A stretch of DNA of 49,785 bases from Opitutaceae bacterium (lineage in GTDB: Bacteria; Verrucomicrobiota; Verrucomicrobiia; Opitutales; Opitutaceae): positions 1 to 49,785 of the forward strand of contig NZNM01000120.1 in NCBI GenBank assembly GCA_002694885.1. Direction: 5' to 3'. Shown here piece after piece: positions 6,301 through 20,887 of this stretch; the first letter of the stretch is position 1, and every line of letters begins with the position of its first letter. A program made the position numbers and the translations under genes. The notes beneath the pieces were generated by a model, which was not told the origin of the DNA, did not search any database, and saw only the letters and a program-made list of their open reading frames with translations.

Positions 6301-7187
6301 TTACGGTCGAAGAGAGCGTGCCCTTGAGCGAACTCGTTGAGTATTTCGATTGGTCTCCGTTTTTCTGGACTTGGGAGCTCAAAGGAAAGCACCCGCAGAT
6401 CTTTGATCACAAGACTTTTGGGGAACAGGCGAAAGAGTTGCATGGCGAGGCGAAACGATTGCTAGAGACAATAGTAGGTGATCAGGTTTTTCGGGCTCGG
6501 AGTGTCGTTGGCTTATGGCCGTGCAATTCCAGGGGCGACGATATTGAACTGTACGCAGATGAGCATGAACGAAAAAGGATAGGGACATTGCATTGCTTGA
6601 GACAGCAGAAACGTAAGAATAAATCAGATACATATATGTCGTTATCCGACTATGTCGCTCCTGTGGACAGCCAGCGTCTCGATTTTTGTGGCGGTTTCGT
6701 TTGCGCCATCTCTGGTGTGGACGAGTTTGCGAAATCCTACGAGGAGCAGTCAGACGACTATTCATCGATTATGATAAAAGCGCTCGGAGACCGATTTGCT
6801 GAAGCTCTGGCTGAAAGGACGCATCGGAAAGTCAGGACTGAGCTCTGGGGCTATGATGCAAATGAAACGCTAAGCAACGATGAGCTGATTGAAGAAAAAT
6901 ATCGAGGGATTCGGCCGGCAGCGGGCTATCCATCGGCTCCCGACCATACTGAGAAGGCAACGCTATGGGAAGTGTTGGATGCAGAAAGCAATACAGGTGC
7001 CCGATTGACTGAGAATTTTGCCATGATGCCCGGCAGTTCGGTAAGCGGATTCTATTTCGCGCATCCAAACATTAAATACTTCAATATTGGCGAGATTGAT
7101 CGAGATCAGATGGAGGACTACGCTTCCCGAAAGGGAATATCGGTCGTTGAAGCTGAAAAGTGGCTGGCCCCGATTAAGGGCTACTAG
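3309..7187 (+). CDS. metH: Cobalamin-dependent methionine synthase MetH
   Basis: Transfers the methyl group of 5-methyltetrahydrofolate to homocysteine through methylcobalamin, giving methionine and tetrahydrofolate in the cytosol. At 1292 residues it is slightly longer than the E. coli enzyme (1227) and has all four modules. The homocysteine domain (about 20-340) carries zinc ligands Cys255 in LNCALGA and Cys320/Cys321 in [10 protein letters not shown]. The pterin domain (about 360-630) starts at [13 protein letters not shown]. The cobalamin module has the base-off motif DVHDIGKN near residue 825. The C-terminal reactivation domain binds SAM. ATG 3309 is the only start in frame, because a stop lies three codons upstream; no Shine-Dalgarno is seen. 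The gene stands alone. It links to the folate operon downstream by recycling methyl-folate. Confidence 0.97.
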
Positions 7188-7398
7188 ATCTTTTTCACGG
7201 ATTACTCTTAAGTCACTCGTCGATTTGATCAGCTAAATTGTAGGGGTTGGTTGTTGCCTCGCGGATGGAGAGAGCCTGTGGGTGAAGCGTAGATTCTGCG
7301 GAGGTCGCGTGTAGTTCACGCTAGCTCAAAACAGGTTTGTGTTTTATTTTGAACAGTTCTGGGGTCCGTCGCCGCTCCTTTTGCAACAGTGTGATCAA

Positions 7399-7418
7399 AA
7401 GCGCTGAAATGAGCGCTT
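7399..7418. repeat. Perfect 7-bp inverted repeat
   Basis: AAGCGCT and AGCGCTT flank a 6-nt loop. On the minus strand the arm is followed by TTTT, so it may be a weak terminator; on the plus strand no T-run follows. Function unknown. Confidence 0.4.
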
Positions 7419-7529
7419 GAATTCGCCTTATCGTATGCGTTCGACCCACTTGGCGCATCCAATGCTGCTGTGCCGATGTCTCATCTCATTTTATCGAGGT
7501 TACAGGTTAGGCTTTTTTTGCAGGAGCAG

Positions 7530-7569
7530 AAAAAATAGAGGTCGGCGTTAAGGGGTTTTCGCCGGCCTC
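7530..7569 (-). terminator. Intrinsic terminator of the LysR gene
   Basis: On the minus strand a 10-bp GC-rich stem (GAGGCCGGCG paired with CGCCGACCTC, one G-U pair) with a 12-nt loop is followed by TATTTTTTC. It lies about 55 bp after the LysR stop codon. Confidence 0.8.
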
Positions 7570-7624
7570 GCCTTCGCTCAGGAGCCCGCGAAACGATGCC
7601 AGGGAGGCCTGTGGCGCTAAACGC

Positions 7625-8518
7625 TCAAGCGTCTTCGACTTCTTTGCCGGTTAGCGTTTTCACGAACTTCTTCATGGCAGGTGTGAGAACGCGACCTTTT
7701 CTATGGAGGATCGCGAGTGGTCGAGTGAAGCCCTTGCCATTTAGCGTAACGGAAGCCAGTGTGCCCTGTTTTATCTCCTGAGCAATCGTAGCTTGTGGGA
7801 CGATCGCTATGCCAGCGTCAATCTCTACCGCCCGTTTAACGGTTTCGATGTTGTCGAACTCCATTACTGGCACCGTATCGATCTTGTTGTCTCGGAAAAT
7901 CTGATCAACCGCTTTCCGGGTGGGGATATCGGGATCGAAACTGATAAATTTGTATTCCTTGAGCATGCTGACGTCCGCGTTGGTCATACGAGCTAGCGGG
8001 TGATTGGGATGGCAAATCGTTACCAGCCTGTCCTCGCGAAATGGGATGATCTCCATCTGCCTCATCTTTGTGGGAAAGGCGACGAGACCGAAATCAACCG
8101 AGTTGTGCAATATGTCCTCGTAAACCAGGTTTGACCGGCGGTACTCCACGCGGACGTTTACAGACGGGAAATCGGTCAAGAAAGATTTGATGAAAGGAGG
8201 TAGTTCATGTAGCCCGATGCTGTAGATGGTGGAAATGCGGATGGTTCCGCTAGTCACCTTTTTCATCTCCATGAGCTCGCTCATAAGTTTCTCGTAGACG
8301 TGGAGGATTTCTTTGGCCGCTTGATATACTCGATTGCCCTCGCGCGTGAGTTGAAATTGCTTTTGGCTGCGATCAATGAGGAGGTTATTGAAATGCTTTT
8401 CCATCGCCCGGGCTTGTTGGCTCACGGCGGATTGTGTGATGCCGTTGAGGCGAGCTGCCTTGGAGAAGCTTTTGGTCTCTACGAGATCGGCGAAAATCTT
8501 GAAATTATCGACTTGCAT
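7625..8518 (-). CDS. LysR-family transcriptional regulator
   Basis: DNA-binding regulator of 297 residues. The winged helix-turn-helix (about 1-60) reads FADLVETKSFSKAARLNGIT followed by QSAVSQQARAMEKHF, the standard LysR pattern. A periplasmic-binding-protein-like effector domain covers about 90-290. The family binds as tetramers to T-N11-A boxes and often controls a divergent gene. Here the divergent neighbour is the PLP-homeostasis gene 73 bp away, and AT-rich symmetric sequence in between could hold the site. The effector cannot be deduced; the length and domain resemble CysB/CbbR-like members in general only. It ends with its own terminator. Confidence 0.93.
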   Translation of the reverse strand: MQVDNFKIFADLVETKSFSKAARLNGITQSAVSQQARAMEKHFNNLLIDRSQKQFQLTREGNRVYQAAKEILHVYEKLMSELMEMKKVTSGTIRISTIYSIGLHELPPFIKSFLTDFPSVNVRVEYRRSNLVYEDILHNSVDFGLVAFPTKMRQMEIIPFREDRLVTICHPNHPLARMTNADVSMLKEYKFISFDPDIPTRKAVDQIFRDNKIDTVPVMEFDNIETVKRAVEIDAGIAIVPQATIAQEIKQGTLASVTLNGKGFTRPLAILHRKGRVLTPAMKKFVKTLTGKEVEDA

Positions 8519-9798: not shown

Positions 9799-10386
9799 AT
9801 GGTTCTATTGATAGATAACTACGATTCGTTTACCTATAATCTTTTTCAGTATATATCGTCGATTGAGAACGACGTTGTAGTTGTGCAGAATGACAAGATC
9901 GCCATAGCGGATATTCAAGGGATGGCTCCGAGCCTGATAGTATTGTCTCCCGGTCCTGGGAGGCCCGAGTCGGCGGGTATTTGCGTTGAGGCTATTAAAG
10001 CGTATCAAGGTAGTACGCCGATATTGGGCGTCTGTTTAGGTATGCAAGCGATAGCCCTTTCCCAGGGAGCGCGGATAGTAAAGGCACGCGCGCCCATGCA
10101 TGGAAAAACGTGCCTGGTATTTCATAAAGAAAGACGGCTATTTAAGGATCTGCCCAGATCGTTTACAGCGACTCGATATCATTCGCTTGTTGCCGAAAGA
10201 AGTTCCTTGCCCGAATCGCTTGTAGTAGACGCGGAATCAGAAGATGGCGAAATTATGGCTCTATCCCATCGAACTCATCCACTCTGGGGAGTCCAGTTTC
10301 ATCCTGAAGCGCTGCTGACGGAAAATGGTATGGAGTTGTTGCGAAACGCGGTCGATCTAGCCCAAAAATGCCAAATCACTGCATAG
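9799..10386 (+). CDS. pabA: Aminodeoxychorismate/anthranilate synthase glutamine amidotransferase subunit
   Basis: Class I glutamine amidotransferase, 195 residues, that releases ammonia from glutamine and passes it to PabB. It starts IDNYDSFTYNLFQYI, has the oxyanion segment SPGPGRP, the nucleophile Cys79 in LGVCLGMQ, and the His-Glu pair in GVQFHPEA. By sequence PabA and TrpG are hard to separate and many bacteria use one protein for both; the immediate overlap with pabB (19 bp) and the folate genes favours PabA, possibly amphibolic. No trp gene is in the window. Confidence 0.95.
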   Translation: MVLLIDNYDSFTYNLFQYISSIENDVVVVQNDKIAIADIQGMAPSLIVLSPGPGRPESAGICVEAIKAYQGSTPILGVCLGMQAIALSQGARIVKARAPMHGKTCLVFHKERRLFKDLPRSFTATRYHSLVAERSSLPESLVVDAESEDGEIMALSHRTHPLWGVQFHPEALLTENGMELLRNAVDLAQKCQITA

Positions 10387-11765
10387 ATGCATTAGAGAAA
10401 CTGGAGTTGAGCGTCGATCCGGAAGCTTTACTCGATCAAGTGGAGCAGCATCCTGGAGCTATCCTCTTGGACAGCGTCTCGCGTGGTTATGGACTTGGTC
10501 GATTTTCGATATTCGCATGTTTTCCGAGAAAGGAGATTATTGGATACGGAGATCGAATCGAAATCATTTCGCGAAATGGATCTGAAATCATCCAAGCTGA
10601 TCCAATTGAGTATCTCCGTTCTGAAATCGAAGTGTCAGCGCGAGAAGCTTCTTGGGACAGCCCGATTCCGCTGCCAAGTGGGGCTCTGGGTTATTTCGCA
10701 TATGATTTCGGAAGGCGATTGCGCAAATCGATACTGCGATACGATGAGAATCGCGATTCGCCAGACATGAGATTCGGCCTGTACGATGCAGTACTGATTT
10801 GGGACCATTCAAACGGAGATCTCTTCGTAGCTAGAAATCCCAATAGAGAAGATGCAGTCGAAGTAGCTGATCAATTAAAGGGTATCCTTCTAGATAGTAA
10901 ATCGGACAAAGCTGACGGCGTGTTTGAAGTGGGAGCATTAAGCTGTGACTATACTCGCGAAGACTACCTCGATCGAGTGGAAGAAGTAAGGCGACTGATT
11001 GTCGAAGGAGAAATATATCAGGCTAATTTGTCCCGTCGTTACGATGCGGCTTTTCAAGGAAGCTCAGCCGCTCTCTACCGTCGTTTGCGAAAGGAGAACC
11101 CGGCCCCTTATTCTGCGTTTATGAATTTTGGTGACGAAATTATCCTTTCTACGTCTCCGGAGCGTTTTTTTTATTGTCGTGATGGGAGAGCCAATACGCG
11201 CCCAATAAAGGGTACGAGGCCTAGAGGGCAGACTGGCGAGGAACAGTCTAGATTGGAAAAGGAGCTGGCAAGTTCCGAAAAAGATCAGGCCGAACTGCTT
11301 ATGATTGTCGATCTTGAGCGCAATGATTTAGGACGCGTTTGCGAGATAGGATCAATTCGAGTTGATGATCTCTTTGCTCTGGAGAACTATGCATCGGTTA
11401 TCCATCAAACGGCTTCTGTATCGGGTAGCCTGGCTTCTGACAAGGATGCTTTGGACTGCCTGGCTGCGATGTTTCCGGGCGGATCAATTACTGGGGCCCC
11501 TAAGATTCGGGCCATGGAGGCGCTTGATACGATTGAATCGAATCGTCGGGGGATATATACCGGTTCGATAGGCTATTTGGGGAGTGACGGCAGCGCTGAT
11601 TTCAACATAGCGATCCGCACGTTACGGATTTCCGAGGGCCGTGTAGCTTTCAATGTAGGAGGAGGCATTGTGTGGGATAGTATTCCAGAAAACGAATACG
11701 AAGAAACGTTGCATAAGGCAAAAGCGATTTTGAAGGCTCTGAGGAAGTGTACTGATGGCAGATAG
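10368..11765 (+). CDS. pabB: Aminodeoxychorismate synthase component I
   Basis: Chorismate-using enzyme of 465 residues that makes 4-amino-4-deoxychorismate with PabA. The signature PIKGTRPRG contains Lys281, the lysine that distinguishes aminodeoxychorismate synthase from anthranilate synthase, which has alanine there (PIAGT). The chorismate-binding core SVSGSL, MFPGGSITGAPKIRAM and GIYTGSIGYLG is intact. The ATG lies 19 bp inside pabA and the stop is 11 bp inside pabC, so translation of the three pab genes is likely coupled. The order pabA-pabB-pabC gives the complete route from chorismate to p-aminobenzoate. Confidence 0.96.
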   Translation: MPNHCIDALEKLELSVDPEALLDQVEQHPGAILLDSVSRGYGLGRFSIFACFPRKEIIGYGDRIEIISRNGSEIIQADPIEYLRSEIEVSAREASWDSPIPLPSGALGYFAYDFGRRLRKSILRYDENRDSPDMRFGLYDAVLIWDHSNGDLFVARNPNREDAVEVADQLKGILLDSKSDKADGVFEVGALSCDYTREDYLDRVEEVRRLIVEGEIYQANLSRRYDAAFQGSSAALYRRLRKENPAPYSAFMNFGDEIILSTSPERFFYCRDGRANTRPIKGTRPRGQTGEEQSRLEKELASSEKDQAELLMIVDLERNDLGRVCEIGSIRVDDLFALENYASVIHQTASVSGSLASDKDALDCLAAMFPGGSITGAPKIRAMEALDTIESNRRGIYTGSIGYLGSDGSADFNIAIRTLRISEGRVAFNVGGGIVWDSIPENEYEETLHKAKAILKALRKCTDGR

Positions 11766-12597
11766 AATTGTTCTAAATGGAGAATTGGTGGAGCAAGGCG
11801 AAATATCCCTGCCGGTCAATAGCGAAGGGTTGTCCTATGGATACGGCTTGTTCGAAACGATCAAAATTCGGGATGGGCGACTTTGTTTCTTCAATGAACA
11901 CTGCGAGAGGCACAAAGCTAGCGTGTTTGCTGCTGGTATGAGTCTTGGCTTTTCGAACAAGGATCTCTTCTGGCAGGCAAGGTCTCTTATCGAGGCTTCG
12001 AGTGTTGTGGATGGCGCTCTTAAGATTGTCACCGCTAAATCGGGTTCAAAGAATCTAACGTATCTCCATTTCAAGCGCACGTCTAAGATAGACAATCAAA
12101 GACCGACGCGTATCCGATTGTCGTCTTTGGTGAAAGGCTCCTCTGCGTTTACGGTTAAACACAAAACTTTAAATTACATGGACAATATAAGCGAGCTATC
12201 ATTGGCGGAAGAACATGGCTTTGATGAATGTCTGTTCACTAACGAGCGTGGTGAATTGACGGAATGCAGCATGGCGAATATCTTTTTTGAAAGATCCGGC
12301 GCTATTCAGACCCCCTCGCTAGATTGTGGGCTCCTTGATGGAATCGTTAGAGCTAAAGTTATCAAGATTGCGAAAGAATCCGGACTCTCAGTCCTGGAAA
12401 GCAAGTTTTATCCGGAGGACCTGGAGGACTCGGAACGGGTCTTTATTACGAGTTCCGGAAAAGGAATTGCTCCGGTGGAGGAAGTGGATTTTGGGAGAAT
12501 CCTGCGTTTCGATGACGAGGTAAGTGGCGTTGTAAAAGTCCTGTCATCCCGGTTTGATGAATTGGAGAGAGAAAGCCTCGGGCAATACGCTGAATAG
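11755..12597 (+). CDS. pabC: 4-Amino-4-deoxychorismate lyase (class IV PLP enzyme)
   Basis: PLP-dependent lyase that splits aminodeoxychorismate into p-aminobenzoate and pyruvate, 280 residues. The fold matches class IV aminotransferases: SYGYGLFETIKI near residue 27, the PLP lysine probably Lys137 in KTLNYMDN, and the region NERGELTECSMANIFF. Branched-chain and D-amino-acid aminotransferases share the fold, but the setting directly after pabAB decides for PabC. The start ATG overlaps pabB by 11 bp and the 3' end may overlap folP by about 40 bp. Confidence 0.93.
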   Translation: MADRIVLNGELVEQGEISLPVNSEGLSYGYGLFETIKIRDGRLCFFNEHCERHKASVFAAGMSLGFSNKDLFWQARSLIEASSVVDGALKIVTAKSGSKNLTYLHFKRTSKIDNQRPTRIRLSSLVKGSSAFTVKHKTLNYMDNISELSLAEEHGFDECLFTNERGELTECSMANIFFERSGAIQTPSLDCGLLDGIVRAKVIKIAKESGLSVLESKFYPEDLEDSERVFITSSGKGIAPVEEVDFGRILRFDDEVSGVVKVLSSRFDELERESLGQYAE

Positions 12598-13459
12598 ACT
12601 GGAATTCGAGGAAGTGGATCCGATCACCAAAAACCAGATGGGAACTTTGAAGCTTGGAGAAAAGGAATGGGCGCTTGGAAAGCGTTGCGGAGTCTTTGGA
12701 GTGTTAAATATTACGCCTGATAGTTTTTCGGATGGAGGGCAGTATATTGATCTTGGAGAGGCGATTCTGAAGGGGGAGTCGTTAGCCAAAGAGGGAGCCG
12801 ATGTAATTGATATAGGAGGGGAATCAACCAGGCCTGGATTTGAAGAAGTTTCTGTTGAGAGTGAGATCAATCGTGTAGTTCCTGTCATCGAAACACTATC
12901 TAGAAAACCGGATTTTCCAATCATATCAATCGATACGACCAAGCCCGAAGTCGCTCAGGCGGCGGTAGCCGCAGGTGCGAGAATCGTTAATGACATTTGG
13001 GGATTTCAGAGGAACCCTGAAATCGCTGAAATCGTGGCGGGAAGTGAAGCTTCTTGTGTGCTCATGCATAATTCTAGGGGAGGTTGGCTAAGAGATTCCA
13101 CCTTGGATTCGATAAAAGCGTATTGGCACATATCAATAAACGTCGCCATGGAGCGAGGGGTCGAAGAGAAACGGATTATACTCGATCCAGGTGTTGGATT
13201 CACGGATACGAGAACGCAAGATATCGAAATCATAAATGGTTTAAGCGAACTTAGAAGTTTAGGGTTTCCTATTTTGCTGGGAGCCTCGCGAAAACGTGTA
13301 GCAGGAGAAGCTCTGGGGCTTGACATCGATGAGAGGCTGGAAACGACGTTGGCAATATCGGCACTGGCGATTGATCGAGGCGTGGATTTTATTCGCGTTC
13401 ATGATGCGATGGAAAATGTAAGGGTCGCCCGGATACTTGAAGTTTTAAAGAACTGTTAG
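12557..13459 (+). CDS. folP: Dihydropteroate synthase
   Basis: Condenses 6-hydroxymethyl-dihydropterin pyrophosphate with p-aminobenzoate to dihydropteroate; it is the sulfonamide target. The signature VLNITPDSFSDGG and IDIGGESTRPG lie in the N-terminal third, ISIDTTKPEVA and NDIWGF in the middle, and DPGVGFTDT plus LLGASRKR near the end, so all pterin and pABA loops are present. The start is uncertain: ATG 12557 (used here) overlaps pabC by 41 bp, TTG 12554 is next to it, and ATG 12638 would give 273 residues and fits family lengths better. None has a clear Shine-Dalgarno. Confidence 0.95.
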   Translation: MNWREKASGNTLNRLEFEEVDPITKNQMGTLKLGEKEWALGKRCGVFGVLNITPDSFSDGGQYIDLGEAILKGESLAKEGADVIDIGGESTRPGFEEVSVESEINRVVPVIETLSRKPDFPIISIDTTKPEVAQAAVAAGARIVNDIWGFQRNPEIAEIVAGSEASCVLMHNSRGGWLRDSTLDSIKAYWHISINVAMERGVEEKRIILDPGVGFTDTRTQDIEIINGLSELRSLGFPILLGASRKRVAGEALGLDIDERLETTLAISALAIDRGVDFIRVHDAMENVRVARILEVLKNC

Positions 13460-13460
13460 T

Positions 13461-13826
13461 ATGGATACCGTTATTCTGAATCGTATAGAACTTATGGGGT
13501 CGATTGGCGTAGCCCCAGAGGAAAAATCAAGTAAACAGCGATACTGGATTACCATTGAGCTAGACGCCGACTTGCGTCGGTCTGGTGAGACCGATCAACT
13601 AGAAGATACGATTGATTATGCGGAGGTATTCAAAATATGCGAACAGCAGATGCAAAGGAGTAGCGTTGACTTGCTTGAGGCGTTCGCGGAGGAGCTCGCC
13701 AAACGGTTATTAGGGCGATTTTCGAAAACTGAAAGAGTAATGGTGGAAATTTTGAAGCCCGATGCGCCCGTAGAGGGCGCTTTTGATTCCATGGGTGTAC
13801 GAATAGTCAGAAGGAGAAGTGGTTAG
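13461..13826 (+). CDS. folB: Dihydroneopterin aldolase
   Basis: Cleaves 7,8-dihydroneopterin to 6-hydroxymethyl-dihydropterin and glycolaldehyde. The 121-residue length is standard. Family marks are the start LNRIELMGSIGVAPEE, DTIDYAEVF, LLEAFAEELA, and the catalytic lysine in ILKPDAPVEG. The ATG follows the folP stop by 1 bp and the end overlaps folK by 8 bp. It supplies the direct substrate of the next enzyme. Confidence 0.94.
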   Translation: MDTVILNRIELMGSIGVAPEEKSSKQRYWITIELDADLRRSGETDQLEDTIDYAEVFKICEQQMQRSSVDLLEAFAEELAKRLLGRFSKTERVMVEILKPDAPVEGAFDSMGVRIVRRRSG

Positions 13827-14667
13827 GGCTTATTTGAGTATTGGGAGTAATCTAGGAGATCGAGCTGGTTACTTGAAAAATGGAGTAGCCACCATCGACT
13901 CTTTCGAAGGGATTTCAGTAAAACAGGTATCTCCGGTTTATCGAACGAAGCCGATAGGCCCTATCGAGCAATCGGACTTCTTTAATGCGATTGTTGAAAT
14001 TGAAACTTCATTGGAACCCGAATTCCTATTGAAAAGGCTTCTGCAGATTGAGTGCAAATTTGGTAGAGTACGTAATGGAAGGTGGGGGCCACGGACACTT
14101 GATCTAGATATAATCCTTTTCGGAGAAAGAGCTAGGAAATCGCCAAATTTGGAGATTCCCCATCCAAGAGCGATCGAGCGGGCTTTCGTTCTTCAACCTC
14201 TTAAGGATATCGCGCCAAACGTTTCTATCGAGGGAGGCAGTTTAGAATCGGCATTGGATAGAATTGGAATCGATGGAGTTCATCGCTTAATAGATTTCGA
14301 CCGTATCCAAACAGTGGGTGTGCTTGGGGCTAGCTCGAATCCAGACCGGTATGCTTATCTGGTTTTAAATCTACTTGTTGAAAAAGGATTTTCGGTATTT
14401 CCAGTATCCTTACGAGAATCGTCTATCTTAGGAATTCCTTGCGGTCGCTCGATTTCGGATAGCGAATCTCAAGTAGAAACCGTCACGCTATATCTCTCGC
14501 CGCAGCGTCAAGAAAGTGTGATCGACGAGTTGATAGCGGCAATGCCACAAAGGGTGATTTTCAATCCTGGAACTGAGTCGGCTGAAAATAGAAGAAAACT
14601 GGAAAAGGCGGGGATAGAGTGCGTCGAAGCCTGCACGGTGGTGATGCTTCAAACCGATCAGTTTTGA
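13819..14667 (+). CDS. folK: HPPK fused to a CoA-binding (YccU-type) domain
   Basis: The first 155 or so residues are 6-hydroxymethyl-dihydropterin pyrophosphokinase: AYLSIGSNLGDR, SPVYRTKPIGP, FFNAIVEIET, RNGRWGPRTLDLDIILFG and IPHPRAIERAFVLQPL. It transfers pyrophosphate from ATP to the pterin for FolP. The remaining 125 residues form a second domain with a Rossmann start TVGVLGASSNPDRYAY, then VIFNPGTES and EACTVVMLQTDQF, matching the CoA_binding_2/YccU family, usually a separate small protein. HPPK alone is about 160 residues, so this is a real two-domain frame with no stop between. Start is GTG with AAGGAG only 2 nt upstream. The role of the added domain is unknown; it may merely share a transcript-turned-fusion or tie folate flux to CoA status. 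Confidence 0.93.
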   Translation: MVRAYLSIGSNLGDRAGYLKNGVATIDSFEGISVKQVSPVYRTKPIGPIEQSDFFNAIVEIETSLEPEFLLKRLLQIECKFGRVRNGRWGPRTLDLDIILFGERARKSPNLEIPHPRAIERAFVLQPLKDIAPNVSIEGGSLESALDRIGIDGVHRLIDFDRIQTVGVLGASSNPDRYAYLVLNLLVEKGFSVFPVSLRESSILGIPCGRSISDSESQVETVTLYLSPQRQESVIDELIAAMPQRVIFNPGTESAENRRKLEKAGIECVEACTVVMLQTDQF

Positions 14668-14741: not shown

Positions 14742-14758
14742 AAGCGAGAACCGCTTTT
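14742..14758 (+). terminator. Weak terminator-like hairpin after folK
   Basis: A 5-bp stem AAGCG/CGCTT with a 5-nt loop followed by TTTT lies 75 bp after folK, at the convergent border with the pseudopilin gene. The stem is short, so this is tentative. Confidence 0.3.
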
Positions 14759-15236
14759 AGTCGGCGATCACCCAAAAGTAGCGATCGTCTGCTAGCTTTC
14801 GGAACTGACCAGTAGCCAAGTTTTCGTCGTCAATAATTTCGTCGGTTTTGGCCAAATCTTCCTCATCTAAGGTTGGAGAAACGACACCGACAGCCGATGT
14901 GACTCCGCTATCGAATTGCTCGAAGTCCCAGCGACCTCCCATTGGCGTTGCTGACTCGAAGAAGCGCTCCGAAAAATAGCCTAGCATTTCGTTTGGAAAG
15001 CTACCTGAAGTTGTGTCAGGTGGCCACAATCCTGATTCGAGGATATAGGTCTCAGAAGCCGTCGCTAGCGTTCTGATATCTCGACCCAAGGCAGCGGATC
15101 TCCAGTTTCGAGTTACTTTCAGAAACGTGGGGACGGCGAGCGCTGCTAGAAGTCCGATAACGGTAAGGACGATTAGCAGTTCGATGAGGGTGAAGCCTCG
15201 CTTGGATCGTTTGATGCTTCGCTTCGCGGAAATCAT
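14757..15236 (-). CDS. Type IV pilin-like / type II pseudopilin
   Basis: Exported protein of 159 residues with a classic prepilin leader: basic residues, then KRGFTLIELLIVLTVIGLLA, with cleavage by prepilin peptidase expected between Gly and Phe and the +5 Glu present. The hydrophobic helix is followed by a soluble C-terminal domain with aromatic residues (WPPDTTSG, GGRWDFEQFD, RYFWVIAD) typical of small pseudopilins. It is a single gene with no secretion partners beside it. Many such orphan pseudopilins are usual in Verrucomicrobiota. Upstream (15237-15478) a 9-bp hairpin with one G-U pair (ACCACGACC/GGTTGTGGT) is visible but has no T-run. Confidence 0.9.
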   Translation of the reverse strand: MISAKRSIKRSKRGFTLIELLIVLTVIGLLAALAVPTFLKVTRNWRSAALGRDIRTLATASETYILESGLWPPDTTSGSFPNEMLGYFSERFFESATPMGGRWDFEQFDSGVTSAVGVVSPTLDEEDLAKTDEIIDDENLATGQFRKLADDRYFWVIAD

Positions 15237-17505: not shown

Positions 17506-19425
17506 ATGCCCCCTCTACAGCACAAAGGTATCGCAACGAACAACTTGGCAGAAATGTACCGCGCGGCGGCAGAGCGGTATGGAGACCTGCCAGCATTCGC
17601 CAAGCGTGTTAAAAGTGGTGTTTTCCAGCCAATAAGCTATCGCGAGCTGTACGTTAGTGGAGCGCATTTGGGAACGGCATTGATAGATCTCGGCGTCGAG
17701 GCGAGGGATCATGTAGCATTGCTGTCAGACAACCGTGTGGAATGGAATGTGGCGGACTATGCCATTGTAATGATTGGGGCAGCGGATGTTCCTCGAGGCA
17801 CGGATATTACAAATCAGGAAATTGAATACATCATTAATCATTCGGGCAGCAAAGTTGTATTCGTTGAGACGAGACGGCTTCTCGACAGGGTGGTTTCGCT
17901 GATGCCCAAGTTGGACAAGGTTCGTCATCTAGTTTTGATGGATCCCCAGGCAACACCTCCAGAAGGGGTCCTTTCAATGGGCAGCCTTATCAGTCGTGGC
18001 CGAAAATTGAGATCAGATGGTGACCGGCAAGTAGAGCAAAGGATGGAAGGTATTTTAGCGGAGGATCTCTTTACCGTGATATACACATCAGGGACAACTG
18101 GAACGCCCAAAGGCGTCATGCTTACTCACGCGAACATGGCGTCGCAGGTAAAGTATTTGCCCTTCCCCTTGGAGCCAGACGATCGTTTGCTTTCCATACT
18201 TCCGGTCTGGCATAGCTACGAAAGAGTATTTCATATGATTGCCATAAGCAATGGGTGCTGCACATACTTTACCAGTCTCAGAACCTTAGCAGACGATCTA
18301 AAAAAGGTTAAGCCGACCATGATGGCGTCAGCTCCCCGGCTTTGGGAAAATCTTTATTTGCGAATTACCAAGAATGTCCGTGAATCCCACTGGATCCGTC
18401 GAGGCTTGTTTCACTGCGCCTATTTTAGTTCCAGAATGGTTAAAGGGTCGCTGTTTTTCCTTCAAGGGAAGCAGATCGATTTAGTTGGAAGATCCGTGTT
18501 TCAGTCGCTGGGAATAGGTGTGTTGCACACGTTGCGGATACTGCTGTTTTCTCCGCTCTATGTCGCTCTCAATGCGGTCGTCCTGGAGAAACTGCGACTA
18601 ATTGTTGGAGGGAGTTTTAAAGGTACAGTTTCCGGTGGCGGGGCGCTGCAACCGCATGTCGATGAGTTTTTCAACTACATCGGCATTCCAGTACAGGAAG
18701 GCTATGGACTTACCGAGACCTCCCCAGTGATTGCCGTTAGAACACAACCAAAGCTGGTTATTGGGACAGTAGGTCCGCTGTATAAAAATACCCAGGTTAG
18801 GATCGTTGATTTGAATACAGGAGACATACTGTTCCCAAATCCGGGTCTACCGAGAGAAGGCAGGGGGCTGAGGGGAGAAGTCCACGTCAAAGGGCCTCAG
18901 GTGATGAAAGGGTATTTCAAGAGTGAGGAAGCTACCGAGAAGGTACTCAAGGACGGTTGGTTAAATACAGGGGATATCGGGATCTATACCTACAACGATT
19001 GTCTGAAAATCGTCGGGAGATCGAAAGACACGATCGTACTTCTCAACGGAGAGAATATCGAGCCTATCCCAATCGAAGCCAAGATATGCGAATCGCCCTT
19101 GATCGATCAATGCATGGTAGTGGGCCAGGACCAGAAGTATTTGGGGGCTTTGGTTGTTCCCTCCTCTGAAGGCTTCCAGGAAGCTGGTCTAGGAAAAGAG
19201 TCTCTTGAAGAGCTGTCGCGTAGCGACGATGTGGAAGAACGCGTCTTGGACGAAATTAAGAGGCTCGTATCGAGCGAGAGTGGGTTCAAGAGTTTCGAAC
19301 AAATCCAAAGCGTTCGGCTCGTGCCGAAAGCGTTCGAATTAGGGGACGAAATGACGAACACCTTTAAAATTAAAAGGCACGTTGTCTCCGAAAAGTACGG
19401 GGATCTTATCGCCAGCGTTTTTTAA
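17506..19425 (+). CDS. Long-chain acyl-CoA synthetase (AMP-forming)
   Basis: Activates fatty acids to acyl-CoA via an acyl-adenylate, 639 residues. The P-loop VIYTSGTTGTPKGVMLTH, the A5 motif QEGYGLTETSPV and the A8 hinge WLNTGDIG are all present, with KDTIVLLNGENIEP after it. Its length and the insert of about 120 residues in the middle (from SHWIRRGLFHCAYF) resemble the FadD15/eukaryote-like long-chain group that can be membrane associated. The C-terminal end NTFKIKRHVVSEKYG places the catalytic lysine. It is monocistronic; ABC-F uup is divergent 167 bp away. Confidence 0.93.
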   Translation: MPPLQHKGIATNNLAEMYRAAAERYGDLPAFAKRVKSGVFQPISYRELYVSGAHLGTALIDLGVEARDHVALLSDNRVEWNVADYAIVMIGAADVPRGTDITNQEIEYIINHSGSKVVFVETRRLLDRVVSLMPKLDKVRHLVLMDPQATPPEGVLSMGSLISRGRKLRSDGDRQVEQRMEGILAEDLFTVIYTSGTTGTPKGVMLTHANMASQVKYLPFPLEPDDRLLSILPVWHSYERVFHMIAISNGCCTYFTSLRTLADDLKKVKPTMMASAPRLWENLYLRITKNVRESHWIRRGLFHCAYFSSRMVKGSLFFLQGKQIDLVGRSVFQSLGIGVLHTLRILLFSPLYVALNAVVLEKLRLIVGGSFKGTVSGGGALQPHVDEFFNYIGIPVQEGYGLTETSPVIAVRTQPKLVIGTVGPLYKNTQVRIVDLNTGDILFPNPGLPREGRGLRGEVHVKGPQVMKGYFKSEEATEKVLKDGWLNTGDIGIYTYNDCLKIVGRSKDTIVLLNGENIEPIPIEAKICESPLIDQCMVVGQDQKYLGALVVPSSEGFQEAGLGKESLEELSRSDDVEERVLDEIKRLVSSESGFKSFEQIQSVRLVPKAFELGDEMTNTFKIKRHVVSEKYGDLIASVF

Positions 19426-19951: not shown

Positions 19952-20887
19952 CTAGAATTTCAGGGATCCAGCAGTAAAAAGCTCCGTCTTGACGGTATCG
20001 TTTTCTGCGTGGAACCATTCTTTGCGCGTGTATTTGCGAATTAAGTACGTTACGACTGTAGAAGTGTTGACTATGAAAAACGAGTAGAGCAGGGCGGGCC
20101 ATAGAATATCGCCTGATATTTGGCTGCCGAAGCTCAGCAGTATAATGGCGAACGCGAGGGGGCCGTTTTGGATGCCAGTTTCTAGCGAAACGGTCCGGCT
20201 TTTCCGCTTATCCATCCCCAGGGCTCGGCTAAAATAGTAGCCGAAGAGGAAACCGCCAAGACCCAAGAATATGCTAGCTACCAGGATGAATGGACTGGTT
20301 TCGTTGGGATTCAACATTCGATCAACGTTTCTCGGTAGCCAGCTAATAATAAGAAAGATGATAACGATAATTCCCAACGCCCCTCCCGTTTCTTCCATGT
20401 TCTTGCCCCAGCGTTCGCTCTTGGATTTGAGAAACATGCCTCCGGCTACTGGCAATAGGCAAATTAGAAGCGATCCTACTACTTTTCCTAAATCAATCTG
20501 AATTTGATCGCTCGTGAACGGACCGGCGTAAATGCTTAGCAGGATGGGCATGGCCACAAGGGCGACCAAAGTCGTCAGTGTGCTCAGGGATATACTCAGG
20601 GCCAGGTCCCCTTTAGCGAAATAATTGAAGAGGCTAGATGTCGTCCCTGAAGGGCAGCAAGCTACGATTATCAAGCCGATTGCGACGGGATCGGAAAAAT
20701 TGAACAGTTTGGCCATGCCGAACGCTAAAGCTGGCATTATCAGGTATTGTGAAAGAAATCCGACAATGGCTGGTTTAGGATGCCGGGCAGCGTCTTTAAA
20801 ATCCTTGATGGAAAGGCTACAACCAAGGCCGAACATGATGACGAACGTCATCAGTATCAGCAGGTTAGTCTCGGTTGGGGTAAGCAT
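19952..20887 (-). CDS. Bile acid:sodium symporter (BASS/SBF) family transporter
   Basis: Inner-membrane secondary transporter of 311 residues with nine to ten hydrophobic helices. CCPSGTTSSLFNYFAKGDLALS is shortened here to its key part CCPSGTTSS, the conserved Na+-site region, and the family start MFGLGCSLSIKDF is present. A second half begins SLETGIQNGPLAFAI. Bacterial members move organic acids such as pantoate or 2-keto acids with sodium; the substrate is not predictable here. The next gene downstream is DoxX-like. Confidence 0.92.
   Translation of the reverse strand: MLTPTETNLLILMTFVIMFGLGCSLSIKDFKDAARHPKPAIVGFLSQYLIMPALAFGMAKLFNFSDPVAIGLIIVACCPSGTTSSLFNYFAKGDLALSISLSTLTTLVALVAMPILLSIYAGPFTSDQIQIDLGKVVGSLLICLLPVAGGMFLKSKSERWGKNMEETGGALGIIVIIFLIISWLPRNVDRMLNPNETSPFILVASIFLGLGGFLFGYYFSRALGMDKRKSRTVSLETGIQNGPLAFAIILLSFGSQISGDILWPALLYSFFIVNTSTVVTYLIRKYTRKEWFHAENDTVKTELFTAGSLKF

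Follow-up and report, generated by a model that had tools for sequence, protein, structure and literature searches.

In the 49,785-nucleotide stretch of Opitutaceae DNA analyzed here (the window), the folate operon ends with a gene, folK::yccU, whose single product joins a pterin-activating pyrophosphokinase (HPPK, FolK) to a YccU-like CoA-binding domain. The same fused frame was found in 16 other genomes belonging to two related genera. The simplest reading of its origin is a rearrangement that set the end of the folate operon before a resident yccU gene, and the most likely reading of the protein is that of two tethered domains which work independently.

A Fused folK–yccU Gene at the End of the Folate Operon

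The folK::yccU gene (13819–14667, + strand) starts with GTG and encodes 282 amino acids in an uninterrupted frame with no internal stops. The initial annotation had read HPPK and a YccU-type CoA_binding_2 domain in this frame, and a Pfam scan of the protein found both far above their cut-offs: HPPK (PF01288; 13831–14217, + strand) at residues 5–133 (E = 2.3e-39, 134.8 bits vs. a cut-off of 25.7) and CoA_binding_2 (PF13380; 14311–14649, + strand), of a YccU-like subfamily marked by FNPGTE and CT motifs, at residues 165–277 (E = 3.4e-26, 92.4 bits vs. 22.8). The scan returned these two domains only, with no further folate-enzyme domain. The protein also matched the NCBIfam folK equivalog TIGR01498 with 143.9 bits (cut-off 54.1). 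The occurrence of the same continuous frame, with 42–54% identity, in 16 further genomes confirms that it is not a product of chance. The window genome (3.68 Mb, 97% complete) has one PF01288 match and one PF13380 match, both within folK::yccU.

The position assigned to the gene, at the end of the folate operon, was also upheld. It is the last of a run that comprises an alanine-racemase-N-type gene, a Nudix gene, pabA (9799–10386, PF00117), pabB (10368–11765, PF00425/PF04715), a pabC-like class IV aminotransferase gene (11755–12597, PF01063), folP (12554–13459, PF00809), folB (13461–13826, PF02152), and folK, with pabA and all later genes on the + strand. The start of folP is uncertain: its longest frame begins at a TTG (12554), overlaps pabC by 44 bases (12554–12597), and carries an N-terminal extension ahead of the domain, and the true start is probably further downstream.

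The first 8 bases of folK::yccU, from its GTG start onward, are shared with the 3' end of folB (13826). A GGAG is found 5' of this GTG at a distance of only 2 bases, a tight spacing for a ribosome site, and the start is therefore based mainly on alignment with the relatives. We also considered whether two products could be made from the window frame by internal re-initiation. The only candidates near the junction were GTG codons at positions −4 and −2 from the GAS motif of the second domain; neither has a ribosome-site match, which makes this unlikely.

Conservation and Predicted Structure of the Fused Protein

Among the 17 fused proteins, mean pairwise identity is 56% in HPPK and 55% in the CoA domain; the least conserved part is the HPPK tail and junction (residues 134–164; 14218–14310, + strand), with 34%. 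Both domains are under purifying selection: dN/dS was 0.05–0.44 in each wherever it could be computed (6 of 9 pairs for HPPK and 8 of 9 for the CoA domain, the rest being saturated). For the junction, a short segment, values of 0.15–1.25 were obtained in 8 of 9 pairs.

Eight HPPK residues (R83, W89, R92, D95, D97, H115, R121, and F123), which we take to be catalytic and substrate residues, are invariant in all 17 proteins and common to the S. aureus HPPK. Since the residues held necessary for catalysis are unchanged, the fused protein very likely has FolK activity. By position, Tyr53 of the E. coli HPPK (numbers of E. coli mutants were taken from PDB titles) appears to correspond to a Phe in the window protein.

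The CoA domain is conserved in a similar manner: G170, A171, S172, and R177 (a GAS....R loop), the FNPGTE motif, and Cys272 (codon at 14632–14634, + strand) are invariant in 17/17 fused proteins, and Cys272 in 20/20 aligned C-terminal domains as well. This cysteine was aligned with Cys132 of PH1109. The loop and Cys272 are presumably ligand residues, and the C-terminal domain would be expected to bind CoA.

AlphaFold2 models, built for the window protein from a 17-row alignment (pLDDT 91.2, pTM 0.86) and for the Pelagicoccus mobilis protein (pLDDT 92.4, pTM 0.89), predict a fixed relative placement of the two domains, because two floppy domains of such size would be expected to give a pTM nearer 0.6. 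Residues 1–158 of the model match complete HPPK chains (4crj, Z 24.9, rmsd 1.6 over 156 residues), and residues 161–282 match 3ff4 (Z 21.6, rmsd 1.6 over 121 residues, 38% identity), 1iul (Z 20.2), and 2d59 (Z 20.1), which have the Rossmann fold of CoA_binding_2. With HPPK ending at about 158 and the CoA domain beginning at 161, the model leaves practically no linker between them.

Distribution of the Fusion

To analyze the distribution of the fusion, we combined a protein search of 57 genomes with PF13380 and PF01288 searches of 252 genomes of the family and compared the matches by their coordinates. The fusion is present in 10 of the 11 genomes sampled from the window's genus; the remaining one (G008, 85% complete) had a match to neither domain. 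It is also present in seven of the eight listed genomes of a second genus, Pelagicoccus, and in the eighth (G224) the two domains are adjacent in different frames. The fused genomes include Pelagicoccus mobilis KCTC 13126 (G222), Pelagicoccus sp. SDUM812005 (G227), Opitutales bacterium UBA5694 (G005), and an uncultured Opitutaceae genome (G007). NCBI taxonomy places Pelagicoccus and UBA5694 in the class Opitutia of Verrucomicrobiota. No other PF01288 match among the 252 family genomes shares a frame with PF13380. A PF01288 match was itself found in only 106 of these 252 genomes (79 of the 165 of good quality); in many family members, folate may not be made de novo, or another pyrophosphokinase may be used.

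Searches beyond the family gave a consistent picture. With C-terminal-domain queries against 372 genomes of the order, nine matches of at least 128 bits were detected outside the two genera and the genus of an outgroup genome, G022, all in frames of 121–193 amino acids, too short for both domains. Among 337 genomes of the phylum, 54 matches of at least 114 bits were found outside the window's genus. Two of them lie in frames longer than 220 amino acids (G581 and G702) and were considered as further fusions, and neither contains HPPK. No match to both domains was observed among the matches listed, best by E-value, for 296 Bacteroidota genomes and for 105 Pseudomonadota genomes. In a set of 299 Pseudomonadota genomes, PF13380 matches occurred in frames of 239–663 amino acids and, above that, in acyl-CoA-synthetase-sized frames. 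Thus, in the samples seen, the HPPK–CoA_binding_2 architecture is conserved but confined to two related genera.

The remaining copies of the CoA-domain subfamily stand alone in the samples searched. Among the best 80 of at least 578 named loci of this subfamily, four are fused (G222, G227, G005, and G007). For the other 76, HPPK was found within the fetched flank of only one (L142, Gammaproteobacteria); opposite-strand frames separate the two genes there, and we rejected this locus as a folK–yccU operon. These 80 loci therefore give no sign of a usual partnership between the subfamily and FolK. The commonest neighbor group of the stand-alone copies occurs in 13 of the 76 loci, and such groups track lineages, so no function was drawn from them.

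Origin of the Fusion

In G022, an outgroup genome of a related genus, the folate operon was located on one contig (C47), without PF13380, and yccU on another (C26), followed at a distance by a pilin-like gene (− strand), fadD (+ strand), and a homolog of window 19952–20887 (− strand). The same block, with yccU again separate, is present in G168. Downstream of folK::yccU, the fused genomes carry pilin (−), abcF (−), and fadD (+). In the window, these include a pilin-like gene (14757–15236, − strand, PF07963), whose relatives adjoin the separate yccU in G022 and G168, and a gene of the same synteny block (17506–19425, + strand), which we call fadD-like from its sequence type. Pilin was detected in 15 of the 17 fused genomes, the window included (but not in G005 and G010), abcF in 16, and fadD in 15, the gaps for abcF and fadD, in G004 and G006, being where the fetched stretch ends.

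The simplest reading of this arrangement is that a rearrangement set the end of the folate operon before a resident yccU, because the yccU of G022 lies apart from the folate operon and near pilin and fadD genes like those next to the fusion. The match between the yccU-side blocks of fused and separate genomes is partial, since the Pelagicoccus stretches fetched showed no homolog of window 19952–20887, a gene that the window shares with five other fused genomes of its genus, and abcF was not found in the yccU blocks of G022 and G168.

G224, a draft Pelagicoccus genome, has folK and yccU as separate genes (L104:6463–7095 and 6822–7694, − strand) with a 4-bp ATGA overlap, which indicates that covalent linkage is dispensable. 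In a tree built from eight proteins of the operon region, with G022 as the only outgroup, both genera were recovered as supported clades (100/100), and G224 grouped with G225 within Pelagicoccus (91/90), nested among the fused genomes. A clade of the seven fused Pelagicoccus genomes without G224 was rejected (AU test, P = 0.0034); the letter make-up of G224 was flagged in this analysis. The short YccU tree was poorly resolved, and its grouping of G224 with an unrelated row had zero support. One fusion with a later fission in G224 requires two changes and repeated fusions require three, and the separate genes of G224 may represent such a fission. In the operon tree, no terminal branch is longer than that of the window (0.70 changes per column), which marks it as a divergent member of its genus.

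The junction is five residues shorter in the fused Pelagicoccus proteins than in those of the window's genus. All seven have a start-type codon at the junction (ATG in four, TTG in two, and GTG in one), located eight residues before the G of GAS (loci L100–L103 and L105–L107). Upstream of it, AGGAG is present in L101 and GGAG in L100. This codon could be left over from the original yccU start, could serve as an internal start, or could occur by chance at a conserved hydrophobic position; a separate YccU product made by internal initiation is possible in these organisms.

Possible Roles of the Fused Protein

We consider tethered, independently working domains to be the most likely reading, and a fairly probable one, because the fusion appears to have arisen by rearrangement, G224 manages with separate genes, and the stand-alone copies show no link to folK. 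On this reading, the rearrangement would have left the resident yccU immediately 3' of the folate operon, and the two neighboring frames would have become one that encodes a two-domain protein. The N-terminal domain would act as an ordinary HPPK, with ATP as the pyrophosphate donor and 6-hydroxymethyl-7,8-dihydropterin as the acceptor. The C-terminal domain would be the only YccU-type CoA-binding Rossmann domain of the cell and would have kept its own ligand task; to our knowledge, stand-alone YccU proteins have no assigned function. The fusion may have been retained for giving the two products in a 1:1 ratio and packed together, and a direct effect of CoA on HPPK would be unnecessary. Some points speak against tethering alone. 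The high pTM values of the two models hint at a defined interface, through which regulation could act, and the fusion has outlasted a deep divergence (42–54% identity), perhaps beyond what co-expression alone requires. G224, moreover, is a single draft genome whose separate genes may have arisen by later fission.

A different, though unlikely, explanation is that the C-terminal domain is a CoA sensor, to which CoA, or CoA in a mixed disulfide with Cys272, would bind and so tune HPPK. PanB uses methylene-tetrahydrofolate to make ketopantoate, en route to CoA. Given this need of PanB, such a sensor might close a feedback loop between folate and CoA or slow folate synthesis in oxidative stress. 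The invariant ligand loop, FNPGTE, and Cys272, which shares its place with the conserved Cys of PH1109, are consistent with this idea, as is the confident packing of the two domains in both models. Bacillus subtilis YneT, presumably also a PF13380 protein, is a stand-alone chain, unlike the fused CoA domain of the window. A study of this organism, which gives the activity of YneT as unknown, describes it as a putative CoA-binding protein that is modified by CoA at Cys126 in spores (peptide TVIMDLCIK; PMC8127865). Judging from the motif, Cys126 probably occupies the same site as Cys272. PanB was detected in 21 of the 21 genomes searched and also in 11 of 14 control genomes; the folate–pantoate–CoA route thus exists here as in most bacteria, which is little proof of a sensor. 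The origin of the fusion by rearrangement and the separate genes of G224 also count against it. The more specific version, in which an allosteric CoA or CoA-redox sensor sets HPPK activity and covalent CoA at Cys272 serves as an oxidative-stress switch, is in our view improbable. If it were true, pterin activation would follow the status of CoA, which stands at the end of the route from folate through PanB and pantoate.

It is also conceivable, but quite improbable, that the C-terminal domain has lost ligand binding and only props up HPPK. The near absence of a linker between the two matched folds would fit such structural support, whereas the invariance of the ligand-loop and Cys residues in 17/17 proteins and the purifying selection on the CoA domain argue against it.

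Finally, a sequencing or assembly error or a recent stop-codon loss in the window genome is almost certainly not the explanation and was rejected. Related genomes outside the two genera do have separate genes, but 16 genomes besides that of the window share its fused frame, among them those of P. mobilis and Pelagicoccus sp. SDUM812005. The initial annotation had named the case that close relatives carry two genes and that the fused one arose by loss of a stop codon. Its first part holds, with separate genes in G022 and G168 and overlapping ones in G224; its second part does not, given 17 fused genomes, two genera, and purifying selection. The functional ideas of the initial annotation, a coupling of pterin activation to CoA or a stabilization of the enzyme, are possible, but the synteny points to a simpler origin through rearrangement.

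Comparison with Known HPPK Fusions and CoA-Binding Proteins

HPPK is likewise covalently joined to a second domain in HPPK–DHPS proteins (Francisella 4pzv, yeast Fol1 2bmb, Arabidopsis 7mpy, and Plasmodium 6jwq) and in FolB–HPPK of S. pneumoniae (2cg8). In these proteins the partner is a folate enzyme, whereas in the window protein a CoA-binding domain foreign to the pathway is attached to the HPPK C-terminus. Another fusion at the C-terminus of FolK exists in the same family: genus g66 has FolK–PabB, whose partner is again a folate-pathway enzyme. Its architecture (HPPK, Anth_synt_I_N, and Chorismate_bind in frame) was verified in two genomes (L067:1–2049, − strand; L075:1462–3399, + strand), and HPPK lies in an open frame of 536–761 amino acids in 8 of the 12 listed g66 genomes. 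The FolK C-terminus has therefore been fused at least twice in this family.

Among solved structures, the one most closely related to the C-terminal domain is the CoA_binding_2 protein CHU_1412 (3ff4, E = 3.2e-30), which we take to come from Cytophaga hutchinsonii; it stands alone and is listed as uncharacterized. PH1109 (2d59/2d5a) and TT1466 (1iuk/1iul) are also YccU-type, stand-alone chains of the same fold (Z about 20). In the alignment, PH1109 shares the conserved Cys but lacks FNPGTE.

The architecture had been thought undescribed, and this seems to be so: we found no paper that joins CoA_binding_2 and HPPK in the open-licence literature, and domain databases may list the architecture without a paper. 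One article concerns a pantothenate-kinase sensor (PMC9974488) and was left out of the argument. Fusions of HPPK with folate enzymes are known; its fusion to a CoA-binding domain seems to be new.

CoA_binding_2 proteins are present in 11 of 14 control genomes of bacteria and archaea, though YneT, the one such protein that we found discussed, is given as a protein of unknown function in the study cited above (PMC8127865). A conserved natural fusion to a well-understood and easily assayed enzyme, present in the cultured Pelagicoccus mobilis, offers a direct route to the function of the CoA domain. It also provides a clear example of how rearrangement can fuse genes, since the two genes occur separately, overlapping, and fused within one bacterial family.
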